From positions 1-64,000 of the forward strand of contig JAKPGJ010000003.1 of the NCBI GenBank assembly GCA_029550965.1: a stretch of 64,000 bases of DNA, in the 5' to 3' direction. The notes below the pieces were generated by a model. It did not search any database. It saw only the letters and a list, made by a program, of their open reading frames with translations, and was not told the origin of the DNA. Position 1 is the first letter of the stretch; the number at the start of each line of letters is the position of its first letter. Positions 41,201 to 58,546 of the stretch are shown here, piece after piece. Source of the DNA: Bacillota bacterium (GTDB taxonomy: Bacteria; Bacillota; Clostridia; Oscillospirales; CAG-382). The position numbers were made by a program, and so were the translations under genes.

Positions 41201-41842
41201 ATCTGGATCTTCGGCGGCGACGGCTGGGCTTACGATATTGGATTCGGCGGACTCGACCATGTTATCGCAACCGGCGAGGACGTAAACATCTTCGTATTCG
41301 ATACCGAGGTTTACTCCAACACCGGCGGACAGGCGTCGAAGGCAACCCCGACCGGCTCCGTTGCGCAGTTCGCAGCGAGCGGCAAGGTTCAGACGAAGAA
41401 AGACCTCGCCGCGATCGCGATGTCCTACGGCTATGTTTACGTCGCGCAGGTCGCCATGGGCGCCGATTACAACCAGTGCCTGAAAGCGCTCATTGAAGCG
41501 GAGAATTACAAGGGTCCGTCGCTTGTCATCGGCTATGCTCCGTGTATCAACCACGGCATCAAGAAAGGACTTGGCACGAGCATGCTCGAGTCCAAAGCTG
41601 CGGTTGCGGCCGGATACTGGAACAACTTCCGCTACAATCCGACGCTTGCAGAGCAGGGCAAGAACCCGTTCATTCTGGACAGCAAAGAGCCTACCGTCTC
41701 TTATCAGGACTTCATCAAGTCCGAGACAAGATACAGCGCTCTTACCATCTCGTTCCCCGAGAAGGCAGCCGCGCTCTTTGACGCAGCTGAGAAACACGCG
41801 AAAAAAAGGTACGAGAGACTTAAAAAACTTGCCGAGCAATAA
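38285..41842 (+). CDS. nifJ: Pyruvate:ferredoxin (flavodoxin) oxidoreductase
   Basis: 1185 aa. 'MDGNTAAAHVAYAFTEVAGIYPITPSS', 4Fe-4S motifs 'CIQCNFCSFVCPHA' and 'CYGCGSCVNVCPG', TPP motif 'GGDGWAYDIGFGGLDHVIATGEDVNIFVFDTEVYSNTGGQ'. Confidence 0.97.
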   Translation: MPRKKISMDGNTAAAHVAYAFTEVAGIYPITPSSVMAEVTDKWSAEGRKNIFGQQVNVIEMQSEAGAAGTVHGSLAAGALTTTFTASQGLLLMIPNMYKIAGELLPGVIHVSARAVASHALNIFGDHSDVMACRQTGFALLCACNPQEVMDLGAVAHLSAIKGRVPFLHFFDGFRTSHEVQKVEAWDYDDLKELVDMDAVEAFRNRALNPEHPVLRGTAQNPDIFFQAREACNIYYEAVPGIVEEYMDKINAKIGSNYKLFNYYGAPDAEKVIVAMGSVCDTIEETIDYLNARGEKVGLIKVRLYRPFAIDRFIEALPKTVKKIAVLDRTKEPGAIGEPLYLDVVNALHGTEFQNCLVVGGRYGLGSKDTTPACVIAVYKNLDAKEPINGFTVGITDDVTNKSLPLEPSPNTAPEGTVSCKFWGLGSDGTVGANKNSIKIIGDHTDKYIQAYFAYDSKKSGGLTISHLRFGDKPIRSTYYVSHANFVACHNPAYIHIYDITEDLVEGGTFLLNCQWKPEELDEKLPAKVKRDLARKKINFYIVDAITIAKELGLGGRTNTVLQSAFFKLAGIIPEADAIKYMKEAAYKSFYKKGEAVVNMNYAAIDAGANAAVKIDVPASWADAKDEPVELKIEGREEIVNFVKDILIPISKQKGDDLPVSAFVKNADGTFPQGSAAYEKRGVAVDVPEWIPENCIQCNFCSFVCPHATIRPVPVPADEAGDYPDVPFLDMTGMPGYKFAVTVSPLDCYGCGSCVNVCPGKKGQKALVLKPMESQLHKQEFFKAAYKYADNPEVLAKFKPDTVKGSQFKQPLLEFSGACAGCGETPYAKLITQLFGDRMLIANATGCSSIWGGSAPSTPYTVNKFGHGPAWANSLFEDNAEYGLGMALAIKQRRQKLTEIIEKFAASDYELISVPAKEWLAVKDEGEASKAASAKLIAAIEKAVEECGSCGCEFDALYRKALAMKDLFVKKSIWIFGGDGWAYDIGFGGLDHVIATGEDVNIFVFDTEVYSNTGGQASKATPTGSVAQFAASGKVQTKKDLAAIAMSYGYVYVAQVAMGADYNQCLKALIEAENYKGPSLVIGYAPCINHGIKKGLGTSMLESKAAVAAGYWNNFRYNPTLAEQGKNPFILDSKEPTVSYQDFIKSETRYSALTISFPEKAAALFDAAEKHAKKRYERLKKLAEQ

Positions 41843-41897
41843 AGCAGGCTTTTCGCTCAACTCAGCGCGCTATATCATATAAAATAACGATCCGTTA

Positions 41898-41961
41898 CGG
41901 AACAGCGCATAAATTCATAGAGGGCAGACCCGCTCTTTTATGAATTTATCGCTGTTTCCGG
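41898..41961. repeat. Long imperfect hairpin (~22-bp arms) downstream of nifJ
   Basis: CGGAACAGCGCATAAATTCATA ... TATGAATTTATCGCTGTTTCCG; arms match apart from single-base bulges. Confidence 0.8.
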
Positions 41962-42053
41962 ACGCGTTTTTTGGCATGCTTTTCGGTTTTCAGAAATGAC
42001 GAAGTTGAAGGGAAATGAAGTTTTCGGCTTAATGCCGGGGAAAGGAACAGGCA

Positions 42054-43013
42054 ATGGCTAAAAACAACATGGAAAACGGCTATAAATATATGTATTTCAT
42101 AACAGCCGCTGTATGTATTATCATTGCTGCGGTGATTGCTGTTGTGCTGGTATTTAGCGACCTTCATGCGGATGAAGGCGAAAAGTCTGTAAACTTTTCC
42201 GATAGCATTACCGATGTTTCAAGCGACACCTCATCCCGGGCAAGTGCGGTGAACAACGTCGTTTCGGTGGACGTATCCGATTATGTAGAGCAGACGGTTC
42301 AGAACGATACGCTGGCGGAGGGCATTCTGGCTGTTATCTCGACAACCGCTCCGCAGAAACAGAACCTGGACCTAACGGATATTTACAGCCACAAAGTAAA
42401 AGCGTACGGGCTTTCGTCCGTCGACCTGTACCTGAACGCCGAGGCGATCGACGCGCTCAACCGCATGATGCAGGCGTTTCGGGACGAACAGGGATTGACC
42501 AACGTCATCGTGAATTACGCGTACACCGATCTCGAACAGATTAAATCCCGCAAGACGATTGCTTCTTTACTGGACCTTGCTTCCGGAAGGTCGGTTCGGC
42601 TGATCGTTTATCCGCCGGAAGAAGGCACGATGGGAACCGGAAAGCACGCATGGTTTGCCGAAAACTGCCATAAGTACGGATTTATCCTCAGATACCCCGC
42701 CGACAAAGACGAAAAGACCGGCGTCGAAGCCAACGCGACGGTTTTTCGCTATGTCGGAACGGTGCACGCGGGGTATATGAAACAGAACAATCTCTGCCTT
42801 GAGGAATATATCGAGCTTCTGAAAAACTATACCTATCAGAATCCGCTGATATATACCGAAAAGGATACGGGAATTCAGTACAGCATATATTATCAAAAAG
42901 CCGATGTCGGAGATACTACGAAGATATTTGTGCCGCAGGACAGAAGCTACGACGTTTCCGGAAACGGTTTCGACGGCTTTATCGTCACGGTCGCAAATGT
43001 CATTTCAAAATAG
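42054..43013 (+). CDS. Membrane-anchored VanY-like D-Ala-D-Ala carboxypeptidase-related protein
   Basis: N-terminal hydrophobic anchor; 'DLYLNAEAIDALNRMMQAFRDEQG' and 'CHKYGFILRYPADKD' resemble the VanY fold. Confidence 0.5.
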   Translation: MAKNNMENGYKYMYFITAAVCIIIAAVIAVVLVFSDLHADEGEKSVNFSDSITDVSSDTSSRASAVNNVVSVDVSDYVEQTVQNDTLAEGILAVISTTAPQKQNLDLTDIYSHKVKAYGLSSVDLYLNAEAIDALNRMMQAFRDEQGLTNVIVNYAYTDLEQIKSRKTIASLLDLASGRSVRLIVYPPEEGTMGTGKHAWFAENCHKYGFILRYPADKDEKTGVEANATVFRYVGTVHAGYMKQNNLCLEEYIELLKNYTYQNPLIYTEKDTGIQYSIYYQKADVGDTTKIFVPQDRSYDVSGNGFDGFIVTVANVISK

Positions 43014-43016
43014 TAT

Positions 43017-43042
43017 AGCCGGTTTTTCACCGGCTTTTTTTA
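43017..43042 (+). terminator. Rho-independent terminator
   Basis: GCCGG-TTTTTCA-CCGGC-TTTTTTT. Confidence 0.8.
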
Positions 43043-43553: not shown

Positions 43554-43582
43554 TTGACAATTTGACAATCGAATGTTAGTAT
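43554..43582 (+). promoter_or_regulatory. Possible promoter with tandem TTGACAAT elements
   Basis: TTGACAATTTGACAATCGAATGTTAGTATACAT; first TTGACA spaced 17 from TAGTAT. Confidence 0.4.
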
Positions 43583-43679: not shown

Positions 43680-46600
43680 ATGACCAAAATCAGAAAAATT
43701 ACGGCACGACTGGTTACCTGTCTGCTCGCGTTGATTTTGTGCGCGGGCGGTTTGGCCGGTGAACTGGGAATGCTTACCGCTTCTGCCAAAGTTGAAAGCG
43801 TCGGCGGTTCAAAGTCTTTGGTTCGCACATCGTTGGATGAAATTAAAAACATTCTCACCGACGTAGCGTATAGCGATTATCTGAAGAAGTATCCCGACGT
43901 TAAGGATGCTACCACAGATATAGACATAGATATCACCGACTACATAGTAAAAGACGAGTCTTCGTCGAACAGCGAAGACGACAGCGAACAGGAAACCGTT
44001 GTCAATCTGATCAAAGGTTTTGGCGGCGCGGAAGGCGACGTTATTTTAATCGGCGATAACGGCAGCGTCAGCTGGAAAGTGAATGTCGGCGAAGAAGCTT
44101 TTTATAATATAGAAATCGAATACTATACGGGCAATATTCAGATAAAAGACGCTGACGGAAACATTGTTTCCGAGGGCAGATCAAGCTCGATCGAGCGTAT
44201 GATTCTGATTGATAACAAGGTACCTTTCAAGGAAGCCCGTTCTATCGTCATGCCCAGAATGTGGGTCGACGAATACACGGTTAAGGACAGCAACGGAAAC
44301 GTGAAGAAGATCCGCTCCAACTCGCAGGAGTTTTTGGATTTCGTGCTGAAATACGAAAACAACCAGAAAGACAGCGATCGTCTTTTCCAGAAGGACAACA
44401 ACGGCAACGAGCTGAAGCCGGACAAGGTGCTTTTGGAGGAGTGGAACACTTATGTTATGCACGATTCCTCCGGCTATTATAACGATCCGCTCAAGTTCTA
44501 CTTCAGCGAGGGCGAGCATCTCCTGACCCTTCAGACGGTTAAAGAGCCGATTGCGATCAAGCGTATTAAACTTAAGAAAGTCGAAACTGCTCCCGATTAC
44601 GAAAATTACTTAAAAGCACATGCCGATAAAAAGGATTACACCGGAGACAAGAAGGTTATGATACAGGCAGAGTATCCTACGATCGTCTCCGAAAGAACCA
44701 TTTACCAGTTAAACGACAGAACTTCCACGATTACCATTCCGCAGGACCCTGCGTTGGTCCGCACCAACGAGATCGGCGGAGACAAGTGGCAGTATGTCGG
44801 TCAGTGGATCGAATACAAAGTAGATATTCCCGAAGATGGTTTCTATTATATTATTCCGAGATCCAAGCAGGACATTTTGTCCGGTATTTACGTCTCAAGA
44901 AGAATCTATATCAACGGCGAACTTCCTTTCAAGGAAGCTTCCTATCTGCGCTTTAATTTCACGGACAAGTGGCAGACCAATCCTCTAAACGACGGAAAGA
45001 CGAACTTTAAGTTCTATCTGAAAAAAGGAATCAACACTATCCGGTTTGAGGTTGCGCTCGGAGAAATGGCCGAGGTGCTCAGCACCGTTAACGCGAGCGT
45101 TCTTGAGATCAACAAGCATTACCGTAAAATACTGATGATTACCGGTCCTACGCCGGATACAGCGCGCGACTACAGATTTGAAAGACTGATTCCGGATACC
45201 ATTAAGGGATTAAAGGAACAGGCAAAGATTCTCACGGAAGTCAGCCAGAGACTTGCTGAAATCACCGGAAAGAAAGGCGAGCACTCGGCGGTTCTCGACA
45301 AGGTCGCGGTTTATCTGGAAAGAATGGGTACGTATCCGACAACCATTGCCGGCAGTATGTCCACCCTGAAGGACTACATGGGCAGCTTGGGCACATGGCT
45401 TACGGATACGCAGAACCAGCCTTTGTACTTTGACTATATCTGCATTCAGTCGGTCGAAGCCGATCCTCCCAAAGCCGAACCCGGCTTCTTCGAGGCGTTC
45501 TGGGGCGAAATCCAGAAGTTCCTGAAGTCGTTTGTATCCGATTACAACTCCATCGGTTCGACCGTTGACCAGAGCATTACGCAGGAATTGCAGAAAACCG
45601 AAATAGAAGTTTGGACAACGACATCCCGCGAGCAGGCGCAGATTATCCGTTCGCTGGTTGACGATGACTTTACGGCAAAATACGGCATACCGGTTAAGGT
45701 GAAGCTGGTTGTCGCAGGCACGCTTCTGCCCGCAACGCTGGCCGGCACCGGACCGGACATCTCGATGGGCAACGCGCAGAGCGAAACGATTAACTACGCG
45801 ATTCGCTCGGCTGTCAAGTCGCTGAATACAAAAACCGGCGATACGAAGATCGGCTATAACTTCAACGATCTGTCTCAGTGGGCGGATCATCCCGTATACG
45901 GAAAGATTCTGGACAAGATTGAGACCTTCGACGAGGTTAAAAAGCGTTTTGCGCCGACCGCGATGGTTCCTTTGACGCTCTACGGCGAGTCTTACGGACT
46001 GCCGGAGAACATGAGCTTCCCGATGCTGTTCTACAGAAAGGATATCTTCGCGGAACTCGGAATCAGCGTTCCGAACACCTGGGACGATTTCTACGATATT
46101 ATATATACGCTTCAGTCCAAGCAGCTTGATTTAGGTTTCCCGAACGGCACAGGCGGCTCCTTTATCTGGATGTATCAGCAGGGAGACGACCTCTACGACA
46201 TGGGCAACTATGACTACTACATGGATCTGCTCCATAAGAACGGATACACGGAAGAAAAGCTCGCGGAAATGGGCTGGACCTATATTGACGACGAGGGCAA
46301 CCTCAGACCGAAGACCGACGGCATGACGATCAACCTGGATTCGGATATCGCGCTCTCTACTTTTAAGGAAGTGTGCGAGCTGTTCACGTCGTACAGCTTC
46401 CCGGTAGCTTATGACTTTGCGAACCGCTTCCGTCGGGGCATTATGCCGATCGCGGTTCAGGATTATACCGCTTACAACCAGCTGATCGTATTTGCGCCCG
46501 AGATCAAAGGTTTGTGGGAGTTTACACCGCTGCCCGGAACCTTGAAGGATGACGGCACGATCGACAACACGACCATCGGCGCTGTTTCCTCTATCAATAT

Positions 46601-47018
46601 GATGAAATCGGTAAACGACGACAACGCGCTCGCTGCATGGACATTTATGCAGTGGTGGACCAGCGCGGAAATTCAGAGCGCGTTCGGTAATGAAATGATC
46701 GCGCTGCTCGGACCTTCCGCTAAGCAGAATACCGCGAACATTGAAGCGCTTTCCAACATGTCCTGGTCGAAAGACGAGTACGACAACCTTTTGGCGCAGT
46801 TCAACGCGGTTGAGTGTTTCCCTGAGTTCCCGGGCAGCTATATCATCGGACGTTATACGAACTTCGCGTTCCTTGACGTTGTCAACAAGGGCGCGGAGCC
46901 GATCGAAGAGCTTCGCTCTTATATCCGGGATATCAACAACGAGCTTTCAAGAAAGCGTCAGGAGTTCAACCTGCCGACTGCGGAATTCTTTAGAGACTTG
47001 ATAAACAAGAGTGAATAA
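43680..47018 (+). CDS. Giant extracellular solute-binding protein with N-terminal carbohydrate-binding-like domains
   Basis: 1112 aa. Signal peptide. Two beta-rich segments with 'LIDNKVPFKEAR' and 'YINGELPFKEAS'. C-terminal SBP family-1 core ('SYGLPENMSFPMLFYRKDIFAELGISVPNTWDDFYDI', 'AWTFMQWWTSAEIQSAFGNE'). Confidence 0.85.
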   Translation: MTKIRKITARLVTCLLALILCAGGLAGELGMLTASAKVESVGGSKSLVRTSLDEIKNILTDVAYSDYLKKYPDVKDATTDIDIDITDYIVKDESSSNSEDDSEQETVVNLIKGFGGAEGDVILIGDNGSVSWKVNVGEEAFYNIEIEYYTGNIQIKDADGNIVSEGRSSSIERMILIDNKVPFKEARSIVMPRMWVDEYTVKDSNGNVKKIRSNSQEFLDFVLKYENNQKDSDRLFQKDNNGNELKPDKVLLEEWNTYVMHDSSGYYNDPLKFYFSEGEHLLTLQTVKEPIAIKRIKLKKVETAPDYENYLKAHADKKDYTGDKKVMIQAEYPTIVSERTIYQLNDRTSTITIPQDPALVRTNEIGGDKWQYVGQWIEYKVDIPEDGFYYIIPRSKQDILSGIYVSRRIYINGELPFKEASYLRFNFTDKWQTNPLNDGKTNFKFYLKKGINTIRFEVALGEMAEVLSTVNASVLEINKHYRKILMITGPTPDTARDYRFERLIPDTIKGLKEQAKILTEVSQRLAEITGKKGEHSAVLDKVAVYLERMGTYPTTIAGSMSTLKDYMGSLGTWLTDTQNQPLYFDYICIQSVEADPPKAEPGFFEAFWGEIQKFLKSFVSDYNSIGSTVDQSITQELQKTEIEVWTTTSREQAQIIRSLVDDDFTAKYGIPVKVKLVVAGTLLPATLAGTGPDISMGNAQSETINYAIRSAVKSLNTKTGDTKIGYNFNDLSQWADHPVYGKILDKIETFDEVKKRFAPTAMVPLTLYGESYGLPENMSFPMLFYRKDIFAELGISVPNTWDDFYDIIYTLQSKQLDLGFPNGTGGSFIWMYQQGDDLYDMGNYDYYMDLLHKNGYTEEKLAEMGWTYIDDEGNLRPKTDGMTINLDSDIALSTFKEVCELFTSYSFPVAYDFANRFRRGIMPIAVQDYTAYNQLIVFAPEIKGLWEFTPLPGTLKDDGTIDNTTIGAVSSINMMKSVNDDNALAAWTFMQWWTSAEIQSAFGNEMIALLGPSAKQNTANIEALSNMSWSKDEYDNLLAQFNAVECFPEFPGSYIIGRYTNFAFLDVVNKGAEPIEELRSYIRDINNELSRKRQEFNLPTAEFFRDLINKSE

Positions 47019-47035
47019 CAGGGGGGGAAAGCAAC

Positions 47036-47971
47036 ATGCCAAGAGAAAAAGCTGTAATAAGAAGCGACATCTCTAAATTCAGATGGACACTTCTGCAAAT
47101 GAAGAAAAACTGGGTTGGATACGCAATGGTTTTGCCTTTCTTCATCCTGTTTTTCATGTTCACTGTCATCCCGGTTGTTTTGTCTGTTGTATTAAGCTTT
47201 ACAACCTTCAATATGCTGGAGTGGCCAAAATGGGTCGGAATGGACAACTACATTCGGTTGTTCCTTGATGACGACATCTTTCTCACCGCAATCAAGAACA
47301 CAATGCTTTTTGCGGTTATTACCGGTCCGTGTTCGTATTTGCTCTGCTTGTTTTTCGCATGGTTTATTAACGAGCTGAGACCGAAAATACGTTCCTTTGT
47401 AACGGTTCTGTTCTACGCGCCGTCGATCTCGGGAAACGTATATATTATCTTTAAAACACTCTTTAGCTCTGACCAGTACGGTATCGTAAACGCGTACGCG
47501 ATGAAGCTGAACCTGATTCAGAAACCGATATTGTGGTTCCAGGACGAGAATTACATCTTCGGACTGGTCGTACTGGTTGCGCTTTGGACTTCGCTCGGCA
47601 CGTCGTTCCTTACCATGATTGCCGGTTTCCAGGTCGTAAATCAGGAGTTGTACGAAGCAGGCGCTGTTGACGGCGTAAAGAACCGCTGGCAGGAGCTGTG
47701 GTTTATTACGCTTCCTTCCATGAAGCCGCAGCTGATGCTGGGCGCGATTCTCTCGATTACAAGCTCGTTCGGCTTCGGACAGATCATTACGGACCTTGTC
47801 GGATTCCCCAGCCCGAACTATGTTGTGCATACCATCATGCATCACTTGGGCGATTACGGCGGCATGCGTTTTGAAATGGGCTACGCTTCCGCAATAGCGA
47901 CTTTGCTCTTCTTCATGATGGTCGGAGCAAACCTGCTTGTAACCAAGATGCTCAGAAAGGTAGGTACATAA
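47036..47971 (+). CDS. Sugar-type ABC transporter permease (MalF-like)
   Basis: 'GYAMVLPFFILFFMFTVIPVVLSVVLSF', EAA loop 'ELYEAGAVDGVKNRWQELWFITLPSMKPQL'. Confidence 0.93.
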   Translation: MPREKAVIRSDISKFRWTLLQMKKNWVGYAMVLPFFILFFMFTVIPVVLSVVLSFTTFNMLEWPKWVGMDNYIRLFLDDDIFLTAIKNTMLFAVITGPCSYLLCLFFAWFINELRPKIRSFVTVLFYAPSISGNVYIIFKTLFSSDQYGIVNAYAMKLNLIQKPILWFQDENYIFGLVVLVALWTSLGTSFLTMIAGFQVVNQELYEAGAVDGVKNRWQELWFITLPSMKPQLMLGAILSITSSFGFGQIITDLVGFPSPNYVVHTIMHHLGDYGGMRFEMGYASAIATLLFFMMVGANLLVTKMLRKVGT

Positions 47972-47972
47972 T

Positions 47973-48893
47973 ATGGTTGCGGATCTCAAGCAAAAATACA
48001 TTGCCTACAGAAATAAAAGAATTATTCAAAAAGGCCCTTCCTCCTTTAAAAGGTCCATCAACCGTTCAAAGGGCGGAGACGCTGCCATATTCATTCTGCT
48101 CGGCATCGTAGCGGTAATCATGGTATTGCCCATGGTTTACGCAATCGTTCAGGCGTTAAAGCCGTTGGACGAGTTGTGGGTGTTCCCGCCGAGATTCTAC
48201 GTAGTCAATCCTACGCTAAAGAACTTTTCGGACCTGTTCAGGCTGATGGGCAACTCGTGGGTGCCTTTCTCAAGGTACATCTTTAACACAGTCTTTATTT
48301 CAATCGCCGGCACCGCAGGAAACGTTCTTCTTTCTTCCTACGCGGCTTACGCGATTTCCAAGATTCATTTTCCCGGAAGAAAGTTCCTGTTCAGCGTTAT
48401 CGTATATTCGCTTATGTTTAACGCAACCGTAACCGGAATTACAAACTTCCTGCTTATGACCTACCTTGGATGGGTTGACACCTATCTCGCAGTCATTGTT
48501 CCTGCCTGCTGCACGACATTCGGTCTTTACCTGATGAAACAGTTTATGGAAACCAGCGTAAACGACTCCGTGCTTGAAAGCGCAAGAATCGAAGGCGCAA
48601 GCGAGAACAGGATTTTCTGGACGATTGCAATGCCGATGGTTAAGCCCGCCTGGGTCACACTGATTATATTCGCGTTCAAGGATTTGTGGAATACCGGTCA
48701 GAATATGTACATTTACAGCGAGCAGCTGAAAACCTTCAACTACGCGATCAGCCAGATCGTCACTTCCGGTATCGCCCGTTCCGGTGTCGGTGCTGCCGCT
48801 ACGGTTGTCACGATGATCGTACCGATTACGGTATTTATCATTTCGCAAAGCAACGTCATTCAGACGATGTCCACTTCGGGTATGAAGGATTAA
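47973..48893 (+). CDS. Carbohydrate ABC transporter permease (MalG-like)
   Basis: 'NTVFISIAGTAGNVLLSSYAAYAISKIHFPGRKFLF', EAA-like 'SVLESARIEGASENRIFWTIAMPMVKPAW'. Confidence 0.92.
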   Translation: MVADLKQKYIAYRNKRIIQKGPSSFKRSINRSKGGDAAIFILLGIVAVIMVLPMVYAIVQALKPLDELWVFPPRFYVVNPTLKNFSDLFRLMGNSWVPFSRYIFNTVFISIAGTAGNVLLSSYAAYAISKIHFPGRKFLFSVIVYSLMFNATVTGITNFLLMTYLGWVDTYLAVIVPACCTTFGLYLMKQFMETSVNDSVLESARIEGASENRIFWTIAMPMVKPAWVTLIIFAFKDLWNTGQNMYIYSEQLKTFNYAISQIVTSGIARSGVGAAATVVTMIVPITVFIISQSNVIQTMSTSGMKD

Positions 48894-48911
48894 AGAAAGG
48901 AGTATAGGGTT

Positions 48912-51116
48912 ATGACGAAAAGCAAATTGGCAAAAGTTATACTTCTTACCGTCTGTTTAATCCTTCTATCGGGCAGCTTTCTCACTGTAAGCGCGCTGGT
49001 TCCGTATACGACCTTTACATACAGCTATGAAGGTAATATGCAGGAAAGCCCGCACGCGTACGTTCCTTTGACAATCATCTCCGCGCAGACGATCAAGAAT
49101 TCGTACCTCAACTCGACGGACGAAGCGGTCAAAGAGAAGTATTTGTTTTCTGATATCCCGGATTTGCAAAGCGTAAAAGACATTTTCGTGGATAAACAGA
49201 ACAACGTGTATCTTGTTGACAGCAAGTCGAACTGCGTAATCGGCCTTGACGAGAATTACAATTTCAAGCTGCTGATTAACACGTTCATCAACAATCAGGG
49301 TATCCCTGACAGCCTGAGCGGCTGCGAAGGCATATTTGTCACGGACAAAGAGATTTACGTCGCGGACAAAGACAAGGCCAGAATTGTCATTTTTGACAAG
49401 GTCGGCAACTTTGTCGATATCGTACCGCAGCCCAAGAGCGACGTTTTGAAAAACATTTATCAGCCGAAAGCAGTCGCGGTTGACAGAGCGGGAAGAATTT
49501 ATGTCGTTTCCGCGACAGAAAACTACGGTATTATTTCGCTGAACAGAGACGGTACGTTTAACAACTATGTCGGACCGCAGAAGGTTACCTACAGCGCATG
49601 GCAGCTCTTCCTGCGTATGTTCAAAACCGAAGAACAGTTAAGACAGGAAGAAAGATACGTACCTACCGAGTACAACAACTTAACAATCGATGATGACGGT
49701 TTTATCTACGCGACCATCGCTTCGATTGATGAAGGCAGCATGGCGAGCGCGATCTCCAACAGATCGAAATCCGGCGACTATGCGCCTGTCAAGAAGTTCA
49801 ACCCGAACGGAAAAGACGTTTTGCACAGAAACGGTCTTTGGCCGCCGTCCGGCGAAGTTGCGGCGTTGAAAGCGAGAGCGGAATTGCCGTTCACCGCGAA
49901 CGGCCCGTCGAAAATCGTTGACGTTGCGCTCGGTCCGAACGGCTGCTGGAGCATTATCGACAACAAAAGAAGCAAGGTATTTACCTACGACAGCGAAGGC
50001 AATCTTCTGTACGGGTTTGGCGATATGGGTGATCAGGTCGGAAATATCCAAAACCTGATCGGAATTGCTTATCAGGGCAGCAACATACTGCTGCTCGACG
50101 GCACAACCAACACGGTTACCGTTTACAAAAGGACAGCTTACGGTGACTTAATAGACGCCGCTATTAAGAACACCTTGGACAAAAACTACGAGAAAGCCGT
50201 TATTTATTACACGAGCATTCTCCAGAACAACAACAACTATGACAGCGCCTATATCGGTATCGGCGAAAGCCTTTACCGCAACGGCGACTATTTGGGCGCT
50301 ATGAAATATTTCAGATATGCGCATGACACCGAAGATTATTCGGAGGCGTACAAAGCATATCGACAGGAATGGATTGAGGATCATGTCTGGGTCGTACCGC
50401 TGGTTATCGTAGTAGGCTGCGTCGGCATCAGCCAGTTCTTCAAGTTCGCGAAGAGATATAATAAGAAGCATCAGAAGATGGTTGAAAAGCGTTCCTTCGT
50501 ATCCGAAATTATGTACGGTTTCCATGTCATCTTCCATCCCTTCGACGGTTTCTGGGATTTGAAGCATGAGAAACGCGGTTCGCTGCGGGGCGCGCTGTTC
50601 TGGCTTGGCATTACCTGTCTGGCCTACATTTACCAGTCGGTAGGTGAAGGTTATTTGTATAACCAAAGCTTCACTGCCAAGGACACCTTACTGATGACAA
50701 TCATTAAAGTTTGCCTGCCGTTCTTGCTTTTCGCGGTAGCAAACTGGTGTTTGACCACACTGTTCGAGGGCGAAGGCAGCTTTAAGGACGTATTTATCGC
50801 AACCTGCTATTCACTCGTTCCGCTGCCGCTGCTTTTAGTTCCCGTCGTCGTATTTACCAACTTTGTCACGCTTCAGGAAATGTCCATTCTGTCCACGATC
50901 ATGAGCATTGCGATGCTCTGGATGGGCTTCCTGCTCTTCTTTGCGATGATGGTAACACACGATTACACGCTTGGTAAAAACGTGATTACGATGGTCGGAA
51001 CAATCGTTGGCGCCGGATTTATCATGTTCATAGCTGTCCTGTTCTCAAGCCTGATTGTTAAGGTATTTACGTTCTTCTACAACATTTATGTAGAGCTAAA
51101 ATACAGGTACTGGTAA
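48912..51116 (+). CDS. Membrane protein with NHL-like beta-propeller, TPR-like segment and YIP1-like domain
   Basis: Repeats such as 'VDKQNNVYLVDSKSNCVIGLDENYN' and 'AVDRAGRIYVVS'; 'AVIYYTSILQNNNNYDSAYIGIGESLYRNGDYLGAMKYFRYA'; C-terminal helices after 'IFHPFDGFWDLKHEKRGSLRGALFWLG'. Confidence 0.75.
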   Translation: MTKSKLAKVILLTVCLILLSGSFLTVSALVPYTTFTYSYEGNMQESPHAYVPLTIISAQTIKNSYLNSTDEAVKEKYLFSDIPDLQSVKDIFVDKQNNVYLVDSKSNCVIGLDENYNFKLLINTFINNQGIPDSLSGCEGIFVTDKEIYVADKDKARIVIFDKVGNFVDIVPQPKSDVLKNIYQPKAVAVDRAGRIYVVSATENYGIISLNRDGTFNNYVGPQKVTYSAWQLFLRMFKTEEQLRQEERYVPTEYNNLTIDDDGFIYATIASIDEGSMASAISNRSKSGDYAPVKKFNPNGKDVLHRNGLWPPSGEVAALKARAELPFTANGPSKIVDVALGPNGCWSIIDNKRSKVFTYDSEGNLLYGFGDMGDQVGNIQNLIGIAYQGSNILLLDGTTNTVTVYKRTAYGDLIDAAIKNTLDKNYEKAVIYYTSILQNNNNYDSAYIGIGESLYRNGDYLGAMKYFRYAHDTEDYSEAYKAYRQEWIEDHVWVVPLVIVVGCVGISQFFKFAKRYNKKHQKMVEKRSFVSEIMYGFHVIFHPFDGFWDLKHEKRGSLRGALFWLGITCLAYIYQSVGEGYLYNQSFTAKDTLLMTIIKVCLPFLLFAVANWCLTTLFEGEGSFKDVFIATCYSLVPLPLLLVPVVVFTNFVTLQEMSILSTIMSIAMLWMGFLLFFAMMVTHDYTLGKNVITMVGTIVGAGFIMFIAVLFSSLIVKVFTFFYNIYVELKYRYW

Positions 51117-51133
51117 AGAGAGGAGAATCGAGA

Positions 51134-54100
51134 ATGAAAAACAGTATATTGACAAAGCTAATGGCGATTCTTCTTTGCCTTACTTTGCTTGCTCCGGTTG
51201 TTTCATTAGAGGTACTTGCCGAAGAGTCTTCAGCGGCTTCTTCCGGCGCTTCTTCCGGCGCTTCTTCCGGAACAACTTCGGGCGACGAGGATATTTGGAC
51301 AGCTTTGCGTCCCGCGTACATGGCGACGACGTTTAAGTCCATCGACGACAGAATATTGGGCAACAGTATTATTGCGCCGATGACATGCATGATCGTAAAA
51401 GACGGTTATGCGCTGTATGCGGACAAAATGACCGGCGAAGTCGTATTGCTCAAGCTTTCGAAACCCAATGAACAGGGCGAGTATGAAAAGAAGGAAAACG
51501 GTATTTATAAATACGACGGCTACTTTTCGACTAACCCTTACAACATAGGCTCGAGTACGTCCGCTTCGACTGGCGCGAATACGACGGAAGCCATTAAGGA
51601 GCAGCTTTATTCTCAGATCATCGTAAACTATTCTGAGAATAACTCCGATTTGCAGTTCTACTCGTTTACGGATGCCGCGAAGAATAATCAGATTAATTTA
51701 AAAACAATCAGAAACGGAATAAGAGTTGAGTACACGCTCGGACGCGAGCAGATCGAATACCTTGTTCCCAGACTGATCCGGGCGGAAAAGCTCGAAGCGC
51801 TCGCCGCGCAGATCGAAGCGAATTCCCCCGTTGCAAGAGACGCGAAGCAGTTTAGAGCTTTCTATCAGATAAAGGATCCGAACGATCCGACGCTTCCGCA
51901 AAAAACAGTCATTGAGATGAAGAAGCAGTATCCGATCAGCGAAAAGTTCCCGGTTTACGTATGCGAGCCGCATATCACGCCGAAAGAGCTTTCGAGACTC
52001 GAAAGATTCGTAAAGCAATATACGGATTATTCGTTTGACCAGCTGGATATTGACCACGCGGAAACCGATTACACTTCGAAAGACAAGGCGCCGCCGCTCT
52101 TTAAGTTGGCGCTCGAATACACGATCGATTCGCTGGGTCTTTCGGTCAGATGCAATGCGGGCAATATTCGTTTCGACTCGTCAAGCTACAAGCTGTCGAG
52201 CATCGTCATCCTTCCGTACGCGGGCGCGGGCAACGTAAACAACTCCGGATACATCTTTATTCCGGACGGTTCGGGTACGATCATCCGCTACGAGGATATT
52301 AAAGGCTCAAACTTTACGCTGAAGAACTCGCTGTACGGACCGGATTATACATTCCACTCCATATCCGGAAAGAACAGAGAAGTCATGCGCATGCCCGTAT
52401 TCGGCGCGGTTGAGATCGTTAAGAATCAGTATTCTACCGAAGAGCTGGTAGAAAAGGTTGACGAAGACGGAAACGTAACGTACGTAAAAGAGAGAGTATA
52501 TCACGATCTCAAGATCGGTTACCTCGCGGTTATCGAGACTGGCGACTCGCTTGCTGAAATAACGGTCAATAGCGGCGGAACAACGCATATGTTCGCTTCT
52601 GTTTACACTTCGTTCAATCCCAGACCGAAGGATTCCTACACGCTGACCGGCGGTATCACCGTTTCGGGCGACCAAGGCGCGATGTGGACAGTCGAGTCGA
52701 AGAGAAAATATACCGGCGACTACAGACTCAGATATTTCGTAATGACCGATCAAATCGACTACTCCGAAATGGCGGATCTTTACAGAGAGTATCTGATTCA
52801 GAAAGGGTTCATCTCAAAGCTTGAGAATGACAACGAAAACATTCCGCTTTACATCGAAACCCTCGGAGCAATTGATTCTGTCAAGAAAGTTCTCGGTTTC
52901 CCTGTAAAGACAATGGTTGCATTATCATCCTTTGAGGATGTCCAGAATAAACTTCTTGAAAACCTGATCAAAGATAATGTTAAGAACATTAAGCTCAAGC
53001 TCAAAGGTTGGGCAAATGACGGACTTGTTTCATTGGTACCCAACGCCGTTAAGGTTGAAGAGGTATTAGGCGGCGAAGAAGGATTAAAGAAACTATTAGA
53101 GTTTGCTAAGAACAATAATGTAACCATATACCCGGATTTCGACTTTGCTTTCATGTATAAAGACGAGTATTTCGATGGTTTTGACAGATCCGACGATTTG
53201 GCGCAGACCATCGACGAAAGAGGCGCTTTCAAGAAAGAATACGATCCGGTAACCCAGAGCTATCAATACGTCGGAATGGGCGTTATCTCGCCGAACGTAA
53301 TGGCAAGACTGTATAACAACATGTATAAGGATTACCAGAAGTTCAACGTGGGAGCAATCTCCGTTGCTTCGCTGGGCGACGCGCTGGTTTCGGACTTCAA
53401 TACCGAAGACACGCTGCACAGAGAAGACTCAAAGACACTGGTTAAGAAGCTTCTTGACCGAATCAAGAGCGAAAACGGCAAGGTAATGGTTTCCGGCGGA
53501 AACGCTTATGTACTGCCGTATGTAACAGATATTTTAGATGTTCCGCTCGACGATTCACGCTATAAGTTCTCGGCTGCAACAATTCCTTTCATGGGAATGG
53601 TTCTCCACGGCTATAAGGAGTACGCAGGTACTGCTATCAACCTTGCGGGAGATTATCAGTACACGCTTCTCAAATCGATTGAAAGCGGTGCTTCTCCTTA
53701 CTTCATCATTGCTATTGATAACACTGCTGAGCTCAAGTCCAGAACCGAGAAGTATTTGCAGGATTATTACTCTGTAAGATACAACATCTGGTACAGAGAT
53801 ATAGTAAATACGTATCATATTCTGAACGAGACGCTCAAAGATCTGAAATATACGCAGATTGTAAAGCATGAGTTTGTCGATAGCAGCTTCAAGGTTCCCA
53901 GAGTCACGTACGAGAACGGCACGCAGATTTACATCAACTACCTGTTGAACGCTTACACGGTTACGGTCGGCAGCAAACAGGTAAACATCCCGGCTGAGAG
54001 CTTTATTAAAGTGGCTAAAGTGAACAACAACGATAAAGTTTTCTGTGTTGCATTTGAGGATGGTTCCAAGCTGTACATTAACGATTCGGATTCTTCCGTA

Positions 54101-54187
54101 AACGTCAATGCGGGCGGCAGAACCATTGAGATCCCTGCTGGAGATGCCAAGAGAATCGACGGCAGCGGAAATGAGTTGAACAGGTAA
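51134..54187 (+). CDS. Secreted DUF5696-like protein with TIM-barrel-like region
   Basis: Signal peptide; 1017 aa; 'GYIFIPDGSGTIIRYEDIKGSNFTL...MPVFGAVE'; barrel-like 'VTIYPDFDFAFMY'. Assigned from recall of the family and its SBP/Yip1/permease neighbourhood. Confidence 0.6.
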   Translation: MKNSILTKLMAILLCLTLLAPVVSLEVLAEESSAASSGASSGASSGTTSGDEDIWTALRPAYMATTFKSIDDRILGNSIIAPMTCMIVKDGYALYADKMTGEVVLLKLSKPNEQGEYEKKENGIYKYDGYFSTNPYNIGSSTSASTGANTTEAIKEQLYSQIIVNYSENNSDLQFYSFTDAAKNNQINLKTIRNGIRVEYTLGREQIEYLVPRLIRAEKLEALAAQIEANSPVARDAKQFRAFYQIKDPNDPTLPQKTVIEMKKQYPISEKFPVYVCEPHITPKELSRLERFVKQYTDYSFDQLDIDHAETDYTSKDKAPPLFKLALEYTIDSLGLSVRCNAGNIRFDSSSYKLSSIVILPYAGAGNVNNSGYIFIPDGSGTIIRYEDIKGSNFTLKNSLYGPDYTFHSISGKNREVMRMPVFGAVEIVKNQYSTEELVEKVDEDGNVTYVKERVYHDLKIGYLAVIETGDSLAEITVNSGGTTHMFASVYTSFNPRPKDSYTLTGGITVSGDQGAMWTVESKRKYTGDYRLRYFVMTDQIDYSEMADLYREYLIQKGFISKLENDNENIPLYIETLGAIDSVKKVLGFPVKTMVALSSFEDVQNKLLENLIKDNVKNIKLKLKGWANDGLVSLVPNAVKVEEVLGGEEGLKKLLEFAKNNNVTIYPDFDFAFMYKDEYFDGFDRSDDLAQTIDERGAFKKEYDPVTQSYQYVGMGVISPNVMARLYNNMYKDYQKFNVGAISVASLGDALVSDFNTEDTLHREDSKTLVKKLLDRIKSENGKVMVSGGNAYVLPYVTDILDVPLDDSRYKFSAATIPFMGMVLHGYKEYAGTAINLAGDYQYTLLKSIESGASPYFIIAIDNTAELKSRTEKYLQDYYSVRYNIWYRDIVNTYHILNETLKDLKYTQIVKHEFVDSSFKVPRVTYENGTQIYINYLLNAYTVTVGSKQVNIPAESFIKVAKVNNNDKVFCVAFEDGSKLYINDSDSSVNVNAGGRTIEIPAGDAKRIDGSGNELNR

Positions 54188-54201
54188 GGAGGAAGCGGTA
54201 A

Positions 54202-55206
54202 ATGGATAAATCGATTAAAACCAAAAAAAGCAATGTAGACGTAAAACCCGCAACTCCGCAAAAGCCGGGAAGACAACGCAAAGTAACGACTTTGCAGAAG
54301 CAAAAATCAAGAATGGGCTGGGTCTTTATCTCCCCGTTTTTGATCGGCTTCCTTGTCATTTACCTTCCGATGATTACCGAGTCCATCTATTTTTCATTCT
54401 GCAAAATGAAAACCGGAAGCAGCGGCTATACGCTGAACTTCGTCGGACTTGAGAATTACAAATATGCAATTTTTACCGACAAGGACTTTGTCAGCAATCT
54501 TTGGAAAAGTATTTTAGACCTGCTTTTCCAAATACCTGCGATTGTTATTTTCTCATTGTTCATAGCAGTCCTGCTGAATGAGAAAATGAAGGGCAGAGCG
54601 ATTTTCAGAGCGATCTTCTTTATCCCGGTTATCGTTTCTACGGGTATTATCGAGCAGATCGACTTGCAGAACTACCTTGCCGAAGTTCAGATGAACGCTA
54701 CGGAAATCAGCCAGGGCGGCATGCAGGTCACGAGCGGCACGGAGATCATCAGCAGGTTGGAAGTGCAGCGATACCTGCAGGGTATGATTGTAGGTAATGA
54801 ACTGGTTATATATATCACCAACCTTGTTAACGGTATTTACAACATCGTCAACAAGTCGGGCGTACAGATGCTGATTTACCTCGCCGGCCTGCAGTCCATT
54901 TCTCCCTCCATTTATGAGTCGTGCCAGATAGACGGCGCGACCGCTTGGGAGACATTCTGGAAGATCACCTTCCCGATGATCAGCCCGATGATTCTTGTTA
55001 ACACGGTTTATACGGTCATCGACTCGTTTACGTCCAAATCAAACGTAGTGATGAACTACATTTCAAAGGTTTACAACACGAACAACGATGGAATGATGCA
55101 GGCTACCGCAATGTCATGGATGTACTTCCTGATGGTAATTGTGATTCTGTTGGCAATCGGCGGTATCATTTCTGCATACGTATTCTATCAGAGACGCGAT
55201 GTGTAA
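54202..55206 (+). CDS. Sugar-type ABC transporter permease with extra internal loop
   Basis: 'RMGWVFISPFLIGFLVIYLPMITESIYFSF', EAA-like 'SIYESCQIDGATAWETFWKITFPMISPM'. Confidence 0.88.
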   Translation: MDKSIKTKKSNVDVKPATPQKPGRQRKVTTLQKQKSRMGWVFISPFLIGFLVIYLPMITESIYFSFCKMKTGSSGYTLNFVGLENYKYAIFTDKDFVSNLWKSILDLLFQIPAIVIFSLFIAVLLNEKMKGRAIFRAIFFIPVIVSTGIIEQIDLQNYLAEVQMNATEISQGGMQVTSGTEIISRLEVQRYLQGMIVGNELVIYITNLVNGIYNIVNKSGVQMLIYLAGLQSISPSIYESCQIDGATAWETFWKITFPMISPMILVNTVYTVIDSFTSKSNVVMNYISKVYNTNNDGMMQATAMSWMYFLMVIVILLAIGGIISAYVFYQRRDV

Positions 55207-55221
55207 GGGAGGGAAAGAACG

Positions 55222-56295
55222 ATGGATATGCCTGTTAATGACAAAAAGGCGCAAAAGGCGCTGAAAAAGCAGCTGGAGAAGGAAGAGGCCTTAAGGCGCA
55301 TCAGAGCGCAGGAAAAAACGCCGTTTCTTCTGCGTCTGAAGTACAAATACCTGACCTGGTATTTCGCAAAAAGGTTTGCCTGGGCTTTATTCAGATTTGT
55401 ACTGCTTTTTGGAATTTCCTTTATCATTATTTTCCCTTACATTTCAAAAATCGCGGGCTCTATCATGAGCAGGGATGATTTTGTCGATACAACGGTTAAG
55501 CTGATCGCAAAATATCCCACGTTTGACACCTATAAAGCGATCATCAACGACAACCATTATTTCAAAGCGTTGTTCAACTCGACGTTATTGTCGTTGCTGT
55601 GCGGCGTATGTCAGATGCTCACCGCCGCGGTTGTAGGTTACGGTTTCTCGAAGTTTAAATTCAAGTTTAGAAACGCGATTTTCTATCTTGTAATTTTCAC
55701 GATGATCGTACCGCACGACACCATACAGCTTTCCATGTTTATGAAGTTCCACTACTTCGATATCTACGGTATCGTCGGCGGAATCAAGAAGCTGTTGGGT
55801 TCGGCCGAGCAAACACCTGCGATCGCAAACCTGCTCAATACTTTCTGGCCTCTTGCGATACTGTCCATCACCGGACTCGCGTTTAAGAACGGTCTGTATA
55901 TTTACATTATGCGGCAGTACTTCAACGGCGTTCCGGATGAGCTGGAGGAAGCGGCATACGTTGACGGCGCAGGCGTTATCAGAACATTCATCAGAATTAT
56001 TCTTCCGATGTCCGTTCCGATGCTTGTTACCATTTTCATGTTTGCTTTCTCGTGGCAGTGGTCGGATACGTTCTATACGGAACTGTTCTTCCCGAGCAAG
56101 TCGGCGCCGCTGCTTCTGCCGAAGATCGTCGGCGTTCCGGCTTCGCTGGATACCAACTACGCGGCTCAGATCACCTACGAAACCGCGATCAGAAATACCT
56201 GCGGTCTGCTGATTCTTGCACCGCTCGTAATTATCTACCTGTTCGCGCAGAGAACGCTGATCGAGGGTGTCGAGCGCAGCGGTATCACGGGTTAA
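55222..56295 (+). CDS. Carbohydrate ABC transporter permease (MalG-like)
   Basis: 'FNSTLLSLLCGVCQMLTAAVVGYGFSKFKFKFRNAIF', 'ELEEAAYVDGAGVIRTFIRIILPMSVPMLVTIFMFAFSWQWSD'. Confidence 0.92.
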   Translation: MDMPVNDKKAQKALKKQLEKEEALRRIRAQEKTPFLLRLKYKYLTWYFAKRFAWALFRFVLLFGISFIIIFPYISKIAGSIMSRDDFVDTTVKLIAKYPTFDTYKAIINDNHYFKALFNSTLLSLLCGVCQMLTAAVVGYGFSKFKFKFRNAIFYLVIFTMIVPHDTIQLSMFMKFHYFDIYGIVGGIKKLLGSAEQTPAIANLLNTFWPLAILSITGLAFKNGLYIYIMRQYFNGVPDELEEAAYVDGAGVIRTFIRIILPMSVPMLVTIFMFAFSWQWSDTFYTELFFPSKSAPLLLPKIVGVPASLDTNYAAQITYETAIRNTCGLLILAPLVIIYLFAQRTLIEGVERSGITG

Positions 56296-56309
56296 TCGAC
56301 AAGCAAAAA

Positions 56310-56341
56310 AAGGCTGTCTGTTCGACAGCCTTTTTCTTTTT
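56310..56341 (+). terminator. Rho-independent terminator
   Basis: AGGCTGTC-TGTTC-GACAGCCT-TTTTCTTTTTT. Confidence 0.88.
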
Positions 56342-56476
56342 TGCTTTCAAAAATATATTGTGGAATTGAGACAAAAAAAGTGCAAAAACGCACTAATATA
56401 TTGTGAACACTTTTTTGACGGATGTGTTATAGTATAATCAGCAAGCAGAATCGTCGTTGGGTTGGGAAGGTACAGG

Positions 56477-57052
56477 ATGAGGCAAATTATTCATTTCGTG
56501 AAAATCGTATTCACCGCTGTTTTTTTCTTACTGGCGCTGTCCGCTTTTTCAGCCTGTATGATAATGCCCGGCGAAAAGCCGCACGGCTCGCCGAGCAGCC
56601 AGGAAGCATCCCTTTCGGAAACGCCCGAAGCGTCCGAAACAAGCAGCAGTACGAGCAAAGAGCCGAGCAATACGTATTCCGAGCCCGCGTTTGTCGACAC
56701 ATTCTTCGCCGAAGACACGTTTATCAAATACTGCAACGCATCCGAAGAACCGAACTACGAGTCGGTCTACAAATTCGACGCGAACGGAACGGTTACATAC
56801 TCCTATAATATGTGGGAGGGGTTTATTCAGTCCACGGAAAAATATTTTATTCGAAGGTACCGAAACGGAATCTATCAGGTTTATATCTATAAGGATCAAA
56901 AAGAAAACGCGAAGGCATTGTTCACGGTGTATAACGATAAAGATGTCAGCGCGGATGCCAGCGCTTCGTTTATAACAGAAAAAGAGTTTTTTGAGATTTA
57001 TTCTTTCCATTTGGAATGGAATAAACAGGCAGCCGAACACGGTGACGAATAA
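56477..57052 (+). CDS. Hypothetical lipoprotein
   Basis: Lipobox 'LSAFSAC', Ser/Thr/Glu-rich linker, small globular domain. Confidence 0.65.
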   Translation: MRQIIHFVKIVFTAVFFLLALSAFSACMIMPGEKPHGSPSSQEASLSETPEASETSSSTSKEPSNTYSEPAFVDTFFAEDTFIKYCNASEEPNYESVYKFDANGTVTYSYNMWEGFIQSTEKYFIRRYRNGIYQVYIYKDQKENAKALFTVYNDKDVSADASASFITEKEFFEIYSFHLEWNKQAAEHGDE

Positions 57053-57120
57053 AGCATATTTCTATCCCTTTTGCCATATAAATATAGCTGTAAACAGCAA
57101 CAGGCGCAGGAGGGAAAAGC

Positions 57121-57852
57121 ATGAGATTTCGTTTCTTGCTCAGAAGCAAACGCTACCGTATTCGAATACTTGCTTTTCTCATCGTTGTTTTTGCCGTAAT
57201 GGCGTCCGCGTCGGCGATTTTAAAAAGCAAGAAAAACAATGCGGATGCCGCCGAGGTGTTTTATCCGATCAAAGGCATTCATACCGAAGAAAAAATATAC
57301 GCGCTGACAGCAAACATCAACGGCGACGAAAAGGAAAAAGATATCGACATGCTCATCTCCGTCTGCGAGGGCATGGGCCTTCGAATCACCTTTTTCGTCG
57401 AACCGGACTGGATTGACGAAAACCCCAATATCGCCAAGAAGCTGCAGAAAGTCGGAACGCTCGGTCTTTATATCAACAAGAACTTAAACGGCAAATCCAG
57501 AAACTACATTATGGAATATATCGCGTCCTGCAACGACGATTTCTTCGAAACAAGCGCGAAATACCCGAAATATGTCCGCGTCGCCGGCAACCCCGATTCA
57601 CTGACGACCAGGATTCTGAACTCGTACGGGCAGTACTGCATTTCCTATGACGCCGTATTAACGCAGGGCGGCGGGGGAACAATAGCCAAAGGAAGAATCA
57701 TCGATATAGGACCGATTAACGAAAAAACCTCCTTTCTGCTCGCGCAGTCGGTCGGAGAAGCGATTACAGCCGGATTGACCTGTATCGAGATGGAGAACTT
57801 TTTGTATAAGATCGGGAGTGTGACGGATGAATACGGAAAACAATACGCCTGA
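57121..57852 (+). CDS. Polysaccharide-deacetylase-like (NodB fold) protein, metal motifs degenerate
   Basis: 'KIYALTANINGDEKEKDIDMLISVCEGMGLRITFFVEPDWIDENPNIAKKLQKVGTLGLYINKN' follows a deacetylase layout but lacks TFDDG and HxxxH. Confidence 0.6.
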   Translation: MRFRFLLRSKRYRIRILAFLIVVFAVMASASAILKSKKNNADAAEVFYPIKGIHTEEKIYALTANINGDEKEKDIDMLISVCEGMGLRITFFVEPDWIDENPNIAKKLQKVGTLGLYINKNLNGKSRNYIMEYIASCNDDFFETSAKYPKYVRVAGNPDSLTTRILNSYGQYCISYDAVLTQGGGGTIAKGRIIDIGPINEKTSFLLAQSVGEAITAGLTCIEMENFLYKIGSVTDEYGKQYA

Positions 57853-58286: not shown

Positions 58287-58546
58287 TGCATAAAACCGCC
58301 GGTTGGAAATTTCGTATATCTATCAATCAAACGAGTTATTGATTTTCAATTTTAAAAATGTAGAATATAACCAGAAGCCGGCTTCCAATACCGCCCTTTA
58401 AATAAGAATAAGAAAGGATTTAGGTATATGTCGGCAGTTAAATTAAAGCTTGCGGAAAGATAGTTCTTATTTTTTCCAACCTTATTGTTCGAACCGTGTC
58501 TATATGGGTGAATTGCAATTCAAAACAAACGCTTGAGGGTAAACGG

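Follow-up and report, generated by a model that had tools for sequence, protein, structure and literature searches.

A fixed seven-gene cassette of Clostridia and Paenibacillaceae is a candidate importer of long or branched glycans

What does an operon move, and in which direction, when it encodes four permeases and a giant substrate-binding protein (SBP) and no ATPase? The question is raised by 64,000 nt of DNA from a Bacillota bacterium of the CAG-382 lineage of Oscillospirales (GenBank assembly GCA_029550965.1, contig JAKPGJ010000003.1, positions 1 to 64,000 of the forward strand; hereafter the window), where seven open reading frames (ORFs) at 43680-56295 run in the same direction with intergenic gaps of 1-20 bp. 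In order, they encode the giant SBP, permeases P1 and P2, a protein with NHL, TPR and YIP1 domains, a DUF5696 protein, and permeases P3 and P4, with Pfam and NCBIfam matches to SBP_bac_1 (C-terminal part only), BPD_transp_1 (four times), NHL and Yip1, and DUF5696 (E=1e-150). We favor, with a probability of roughly 0.6, the reading that this cassette is an ATP-driven importer of long or branched glycans, an elaborated ATP-binding cassette (ABC) system of the CUT1 type. An earlier sequence-only reading had described seven tightly packed co-directional genes ending at a strong terminator, and the ORFs, the short gaps and the 3′ hairpin are all present. The predicted promoter and the hairpins on either side of the run are listed in Table 1; the seven genes are therefore probably a single transcription unit of ~12.7 kb.

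Is the arrangement peculiar to the window? Among 288 genomes of the window's class, whose family lists we compared by reading, the NHL/YIP1 protein occurs in 63, and each of these also encodes DUF5696 and the giant SBP, a co-occurrence far above chance. In a wider search the best 80 loci, from Clostridia and Paenibacillaceae, were retained, and gene order was read by six-frame profile searches with the window included. The order SBP-P1-P2-NHL+YIP1-DUF5696-P3-P4 was exact in each of the 63 loci that had space for the whole run (the window and 62 from other genomes), and identical in 20/20 further loci, mostly distant paralogues, from four Paenibacillus genomes with several DUF5696 copies, as well as on two plasmids; the loci were found via DUF5696, so that its presence is by construction and the order of the remaining genes is not. 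Across the 63 and the 20 loci, complete cassettes never lack NHL/YIP1 or DUF5696, and every one has two permease pairs. Of the 56 Paenibacillaceae loci, 37 encode NHL and YIP1 separately, and of the 32 Clostridia loci, 29 encode them as one fused protein; in the window's fused protein the YIP1 match (PF04893) scores 52.9 bits against a cut-off of 28.6, with several transmembrane segments, in agreement with the polytopic YIP1-like propeller protein first described. The cassette is a fixed unit of known families in a new arrangement. The sequence-only reading had staked its proposal on conservation of the locus as a unit, and the order is invariant; its view that the unit is undescribed also appears to stand, as an open-access literature search (subscription papers and preprints lay outside it) for DUF5696/PF18952, alone or combined with YIP1, NHL or permease, turned up no paper that describes it. 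A paper on a Paenibacillus xanthan locus mentions two binding proteins and permeases, and its genes could not be matched to the cassette.

Copy number and setting vary among relatives. Two Paenibacillus genomes (G302 and G292, of loci L160 and L136) have up to 11 DUF5696 matches in one genome, some of them broken by stops or short contigs. On the Butyrivibrio fibrisolvens plasmid pNP243 (L225:1991-21961) the cassette is accompanied by a histidine kinase, a response regulator, a GH43 enzyme and two extra SBPs, and on a Paenibacillus cellulosilyticus plasmid (L226:5552-25705) a UgpC ATPase gene stands in front of it and genes for LLM-class flavin oxidoreductases and two SBPs come after it; this may be an organosulfur or sulfosugar locus.

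The transport core resembles CUT1 importers such as MalEFGK2 and the MdxEFG and AraNPQ systems of Bacillus subtilis with MsmX, as it combines an SBP of maltose-binding protein (MBP) fold and BPD_transp_1 permeases carrying EAA loops with a presumed UgpC/MsmX-type ATPase partner, which can be shared or operon-encoded and in the window's genome is a single orphan copy outside the operon. It differs in having two permease pairs, whereas CUT1 importers have one SBP and one pair; in its 1112-aa non-lipoprotein SBP with putative CBM35-like modules, whereas Gram-positive CUT1 SBPs are usually lipid-anchored; and in its fixed NHL/YIP1 and GH129-like subunits. We found the EAA loop in all four window permeases and in all readable copies across loci, the two exceptions both lying within N-masked stretches. 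Each cassette position forms its own clade in a permease tree (the one leaf labeled 'other' that falls within the P4 clade proved to be the P4 gene of a cassette), and these separate clades led us to reject a recent duplication of one permease pair.

The absence of an ATPase from the run, already noted from sequence, can be explained by an orphan enzyme elsewhere in the genome and by in-operon copies in relatives. Only one OB_MalK ATPase is encoded in the genome of the window, a 371-aa protein of the NCBIfam UgpC subfamily whose orphan gene adjoins a predicted alpha-galactosidase, and in seven paralogous Paenibacillus cassettes a UgpC/MsmX-type ATPase gene, its product 49-55% identical to the window genome's ATPase, lies directly 5′ of the giant SBP gene. 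The OB_MalK domain is present in 62/63 cassette genomes vs 162/225 others (p=3e-7, relatedness not corrected for). Multitask MsmX-type ATPases serve incomplete sugar importers (PMC7658222), and the data fit a model in which both permease pairs are powered by the orphan UgpC/MsmX-type ATPase, in line with the shared MsmX-type enzyme that the sequence-only reading had postulated.

What, then, does the giant SBP bind, and which permeases does it serve? Its AlphaFold model (pLDDT 88, pTM 0.83) begins with two beta-rich domains, continues with a helical bundle and ends in an MBP fold, for which Foldseek gave TM-scores of 0.72-0.80 to sugar-binding proteins; the gene and its 1112-aa length are as first reported, the SBP fold being limited to residues ~640-1100. 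For the N-terminal part, Pfam CBM_35 matches 18/34 SBP homologues (best 3e-7) and Golvesin_C 29/34; a fold search aimed at the N-terminus was swamped by MBP matches, and a PDB sequence search with it gave no match. The protein has a signal segment, and a lipobox is present in 0/65 sequences, unlike a companion SBP of Paenibacillaceae that has one in 29/34, which hints that the giant SBP is retained by its partners or by an uncleaved signal helix.

This companion SBP adjoins 49 of the 56 complete Paenibacillaceae cassettes and is absent beside 27 of the 32 complete Clostridia cassettes, including that of the window, whose genome has only weak companion homologues elsewhere. The earlier idea of one SBP shared by two pairs is thus right for the window and for the majority of Clostridia loci but not for most Paenibacillaceae loci, where a second SBP adjoins the cassette. 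Its presence, and its usual lipoprotein nature, favor a simpler picture in which the operon combines two ordinary CUT1 importers, each with its own SBP, the giant SBP feeding P1/P2 and the companion P3/P4, with NHL/YIP1 and DUF5696 as accessories and no large complex. Pairwise distances in the 54 loci with an adjacent companion point the same way: the companion correlates with DUF5696 and P3/P4 at r 0.91-0.95 and with P1/P2 at 0.79-0.80 (difference 0.12, bootstrap 95% 0.09-0.14), a weak kind of evidence in which common ancestry and rate differences give the same pattern. We nevertheless consider this picture unlikely, given that those 27 Clostridia cassettes keep all four permeases with no adjacent companion and that complete cassettes never lose NHL/YIP1 or DUF5696. 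Dedication of the giant SBP to one permease pair was rejected, as its distances show no preference. Partial correlations link P1 with P2, the giant SBP with P2, NHL with DUF5696 and the companion with P4, which weakly suggests that the cassette consists of two sub-modules joined by NHL/YIP1.

The DUF5696 profile matches the GH129 structures NagBb and DagB by sequence, and the AlphaFold model of the window protein (pLDDT 88, pTM 0.84) has the GH129 fold, with Foldseek E-values of 3e-28 to 5opq and 8e-22 to 5wzr and a TM-score by target of ~0.7. Like these GH129/GH101 alpha-N-acetylgalactosaminidases it contains a beta-sandwich, a TIM barrel and a C-terminal beta domain, and the "TIM-barrel-like exoprotein" of the sequence-only reading is to that extent upheld. 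It differs from them in that the catalytic pair is lost in most cassette members, the window's included, and in that it always lies within an importer operon. In NagBb, we take Glu478 to be the acid/base and Asp330 to be part of the substrate site. NagBb Asp435 is equivalent to the catalytic Asp486 of DagB (PMC5698469). Mapped by sequence alignment and strand positions, not by superposed coordinates, the window protein has Ser746 at the nucleophile (Asp) position, Ser787 at the acid/base (Glu) position and Val at the position of Asp330, and nearby Asn790 is invariant. Both acids are present in 9/74 cassette proteins vs 19/19 stand-alone relatives without a cassette. Because serines replace a pair that all stand-alone relatives keep, the protein encoded in the window has probably become a pseudoenzyme that binds glycan, which modifies the first proposal. 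That DUF5696 is an active alpha-glycosidase, cutting back the captured glycan ahead of import, as the fold, the homology to active NagBb and DagB and the nine members with both Asp and Glu might suggest, appears improbable to us in view of the two serines and the valine of the window protein, the retention of the pair in stand-alone relatives and the invariant Asn790. The stand-alone DUF5696-like proteins, of 565-680 aa in other Clostridia genomes (L205-L223), keep the Asp330 equivalent as well as the catalytic pair and are probably undescribed GH129-like alpha-glycosidases.

The direction and nature of the cargo can be approached through the neighbors. In Paenibacillaceae the cassette usually has enzymes that degrade polysaccharides as neighbors. 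The genes downstream of it there include those for GH26 (11/82 proteins), GH10, GH43, GH30, GH2, GH38, GH95, GH113 and GH5 enzymes; further Paenibacillus copies adjoin GH32, GH51, GH123, GH20-like and UxuA genes, and LacI or AraC-type regulators lie upstream in relatives. Because these degradation enzymes differ from copy to copy, separate copies appear to serve separate glycans, namely mannan, xylan, alpha-mannan, fructan and arabinan. A Gram-positive polysaccharide utilization locus is defined by a degradation enzyme, a transporter and a regulator at one locus (quoted in PMC12827396), and several relatives, in which the cassette is the transport part beside glycoside hydrolases and LacI/AraC regulators, correspond to this definition; the window copy, with neither a glycoside hydrolase nor a regulator as neighbor, is a transporter only, and in place of the usual three transport genes the cassette has a far larger set. 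The sequence-only reading had instead suggested a machine that handles a large or envelope polysaccharide. In its envelope form this would mean export, assembly or remodeling of a cell-surface polysaccharide, to which the VanY-type D,D-carboxypeptidase upstream in the window, VanY matches beside two related Clostridia cassettes and the lack of adjoining degradation genes in the window lend some color. The comparison does not support this envelope role and we regard it as very improbable: an SBP and EAA-loop permeases are importer hallmarks, a terminator stands between VanY and the cassette, and relatives' cassettes adjoin enzymes that degrade outside polysaccharides rather than wall- or capsule-synthesis genes. 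No glycosyltransferase, flippase, ligase or export ATPase partner was found among the listed neighbor families; the three ABC exporters found all lie in Paenibacillaceae flanks.

How might the parts work together? In the importer that we favor, two putative CBM35-like modules of the giant SBP would capture the glycan and pass a chain end to the MBP-like domain, while the DUF5696 protein, a GH129 fold minus the catalytic pair in the window copy, would bind and orient the chain on the outer side of the membrane. As a scaffold, the NHL-propeller/TPR domain, anchored by its own transmembrane helix and the YIP1 membrane domain, would hold both proteins above the P1/P2 and P3/P4 heterodimers, each driven by the single orphan ATPase. 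Glycan import by a CUT1-like mechanism is well supported inferentially; the physical complex, the size of the substrate, the division of labor between the two channels and the substrate in the window's organism are likewise inferred. Several points weigh against this importer: each of the seven proteins could act on its own; the SBP of the window has neither a Pfam CBM_35 nor a Golvesin_C match; one of the 63 cassette genomes has no detected OB_MalK domain; some cassette DUF5696 members may be enzymes, as 9/74 keep both acids; degradation genes adjoin few Clostridia cassettes and not the window's; and the plasmid cassette with LLM-class flavin oxidoreductases suggests that some cassettes have a cargo other than a polysaccharide. 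More tentatively, and at somewhat less than even odds, the seven proteins and the shared ATPase may assemble into a single stable supercomplex at the cell surface, the Gram-positive equivalent of SusCD, in which two ABC channels share a capture platform made of the CBM-bearing SBP, the GH129-derived pseudoenzyme and the propeller/TPR/YIP1 scaffold and import glycans too long for ordinary ABC importers. This view is attractive but unproven. The likeness to Bacteroidetes SusCD, surface capture coupled to long-glycan uptake, is one of analogy only, with no homology claimed; the cassette differs in being ATP-driven, with no TonB or outer membrane.

Table 1. Features of the cassette and its borders in the window, with the basis of each assignment
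Feature	Position	Strand	Basis
Terminator-like hairpin 3′ of the VanY gene, setting the cassette apart from it	43017..43035	+	sequence
Predicted promoter TTGACA-17-TAGTAT, TG before -10	43554..43582	+	conserved with two relatives
Giant SBP, 1112 aa, signal segment, no lipobox	43680..47018	+	
SBP beta-sandwich-like domain 1, residues ~80-300	43917..44579	+	model secondary structure; CBM35/Golvesin_C matches in relatives
SBP beta-sandwich-like domain 2, CBM35-like, residues ~325-460	44652..45059	+	model; matches in relatives
SBP helical bundle, residues ~463-617	45066..45530	+	model
SBP MBP-type substrate-binding domain, residues ~640-1100	45597..46979	+	Pfam, fold search
Permease P1, 311 aa, EAA loop	47036..47971	+	Pfam/NCBIfam
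Permease P2, 306 aa, EAA loop	47973..48893	+	Pfam/NCBIfam
NHL propeller (~80-400)/TPR (~417-480)/transmembrane helix (492-510)/YIP1 (537-708) protein, 734 aa	48912..51116	+	Pfam
DUF5696 protein, 1017 aa, GH129-type fold, Ser746/Ser787 at nucleophile and acid/base positions	51134..54187	+	
Permease P3, 334 aa, EAA loop	54202..55206	+	Pfam/NCBIfam
Permease P4, 357 aa, EAA loop	55222..56295	+	Pfam/NCBIfam
Intrinsic terminator, 12-bp stem and T run	56307..56335	+	

Around the cassette, no RNA families were found nearby, and the gap upstream of the SBP gene, searched for repeats or an operator, held nothing convincing. Upstream (38285-43013) lie a pyruvate:ferredoxin oxidoreductase-like gene and the VanY-type carboxypeptidase gene, and the two closest relatives' loci (L092, L093) have similar genes in this position. 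Downstream, 56462-57852 encodes a secreted-looking 196-aa protein of no family followed by a degenerate PdaB-like polysaccharide deacetylase, and 58496-60160 holds a 554-aa ORF with an extracytoplasmic function (ECF)-type sigma factor-like start and a long C-terminal part without known identity, as judged by eye from its translation.

The cassette is present in about a fifth of the sampled class genomes, with many copies in Paenibacillus, and its proteins are still annotated under labels like DUF5696 or 'YIP1 family protein'. If our reading is true, DUF5696 and a bacterial YIP1 family would each gain a role, and a glycosidase fold would be seen to have been recruited as a transport subunit. 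A single signature would then suffice to mark the transport part of polysaccharide loci during annotation, and the question of how Gram-positive bacteria of gut and soil acquire long plant and microbial glycans would have a testable answer.

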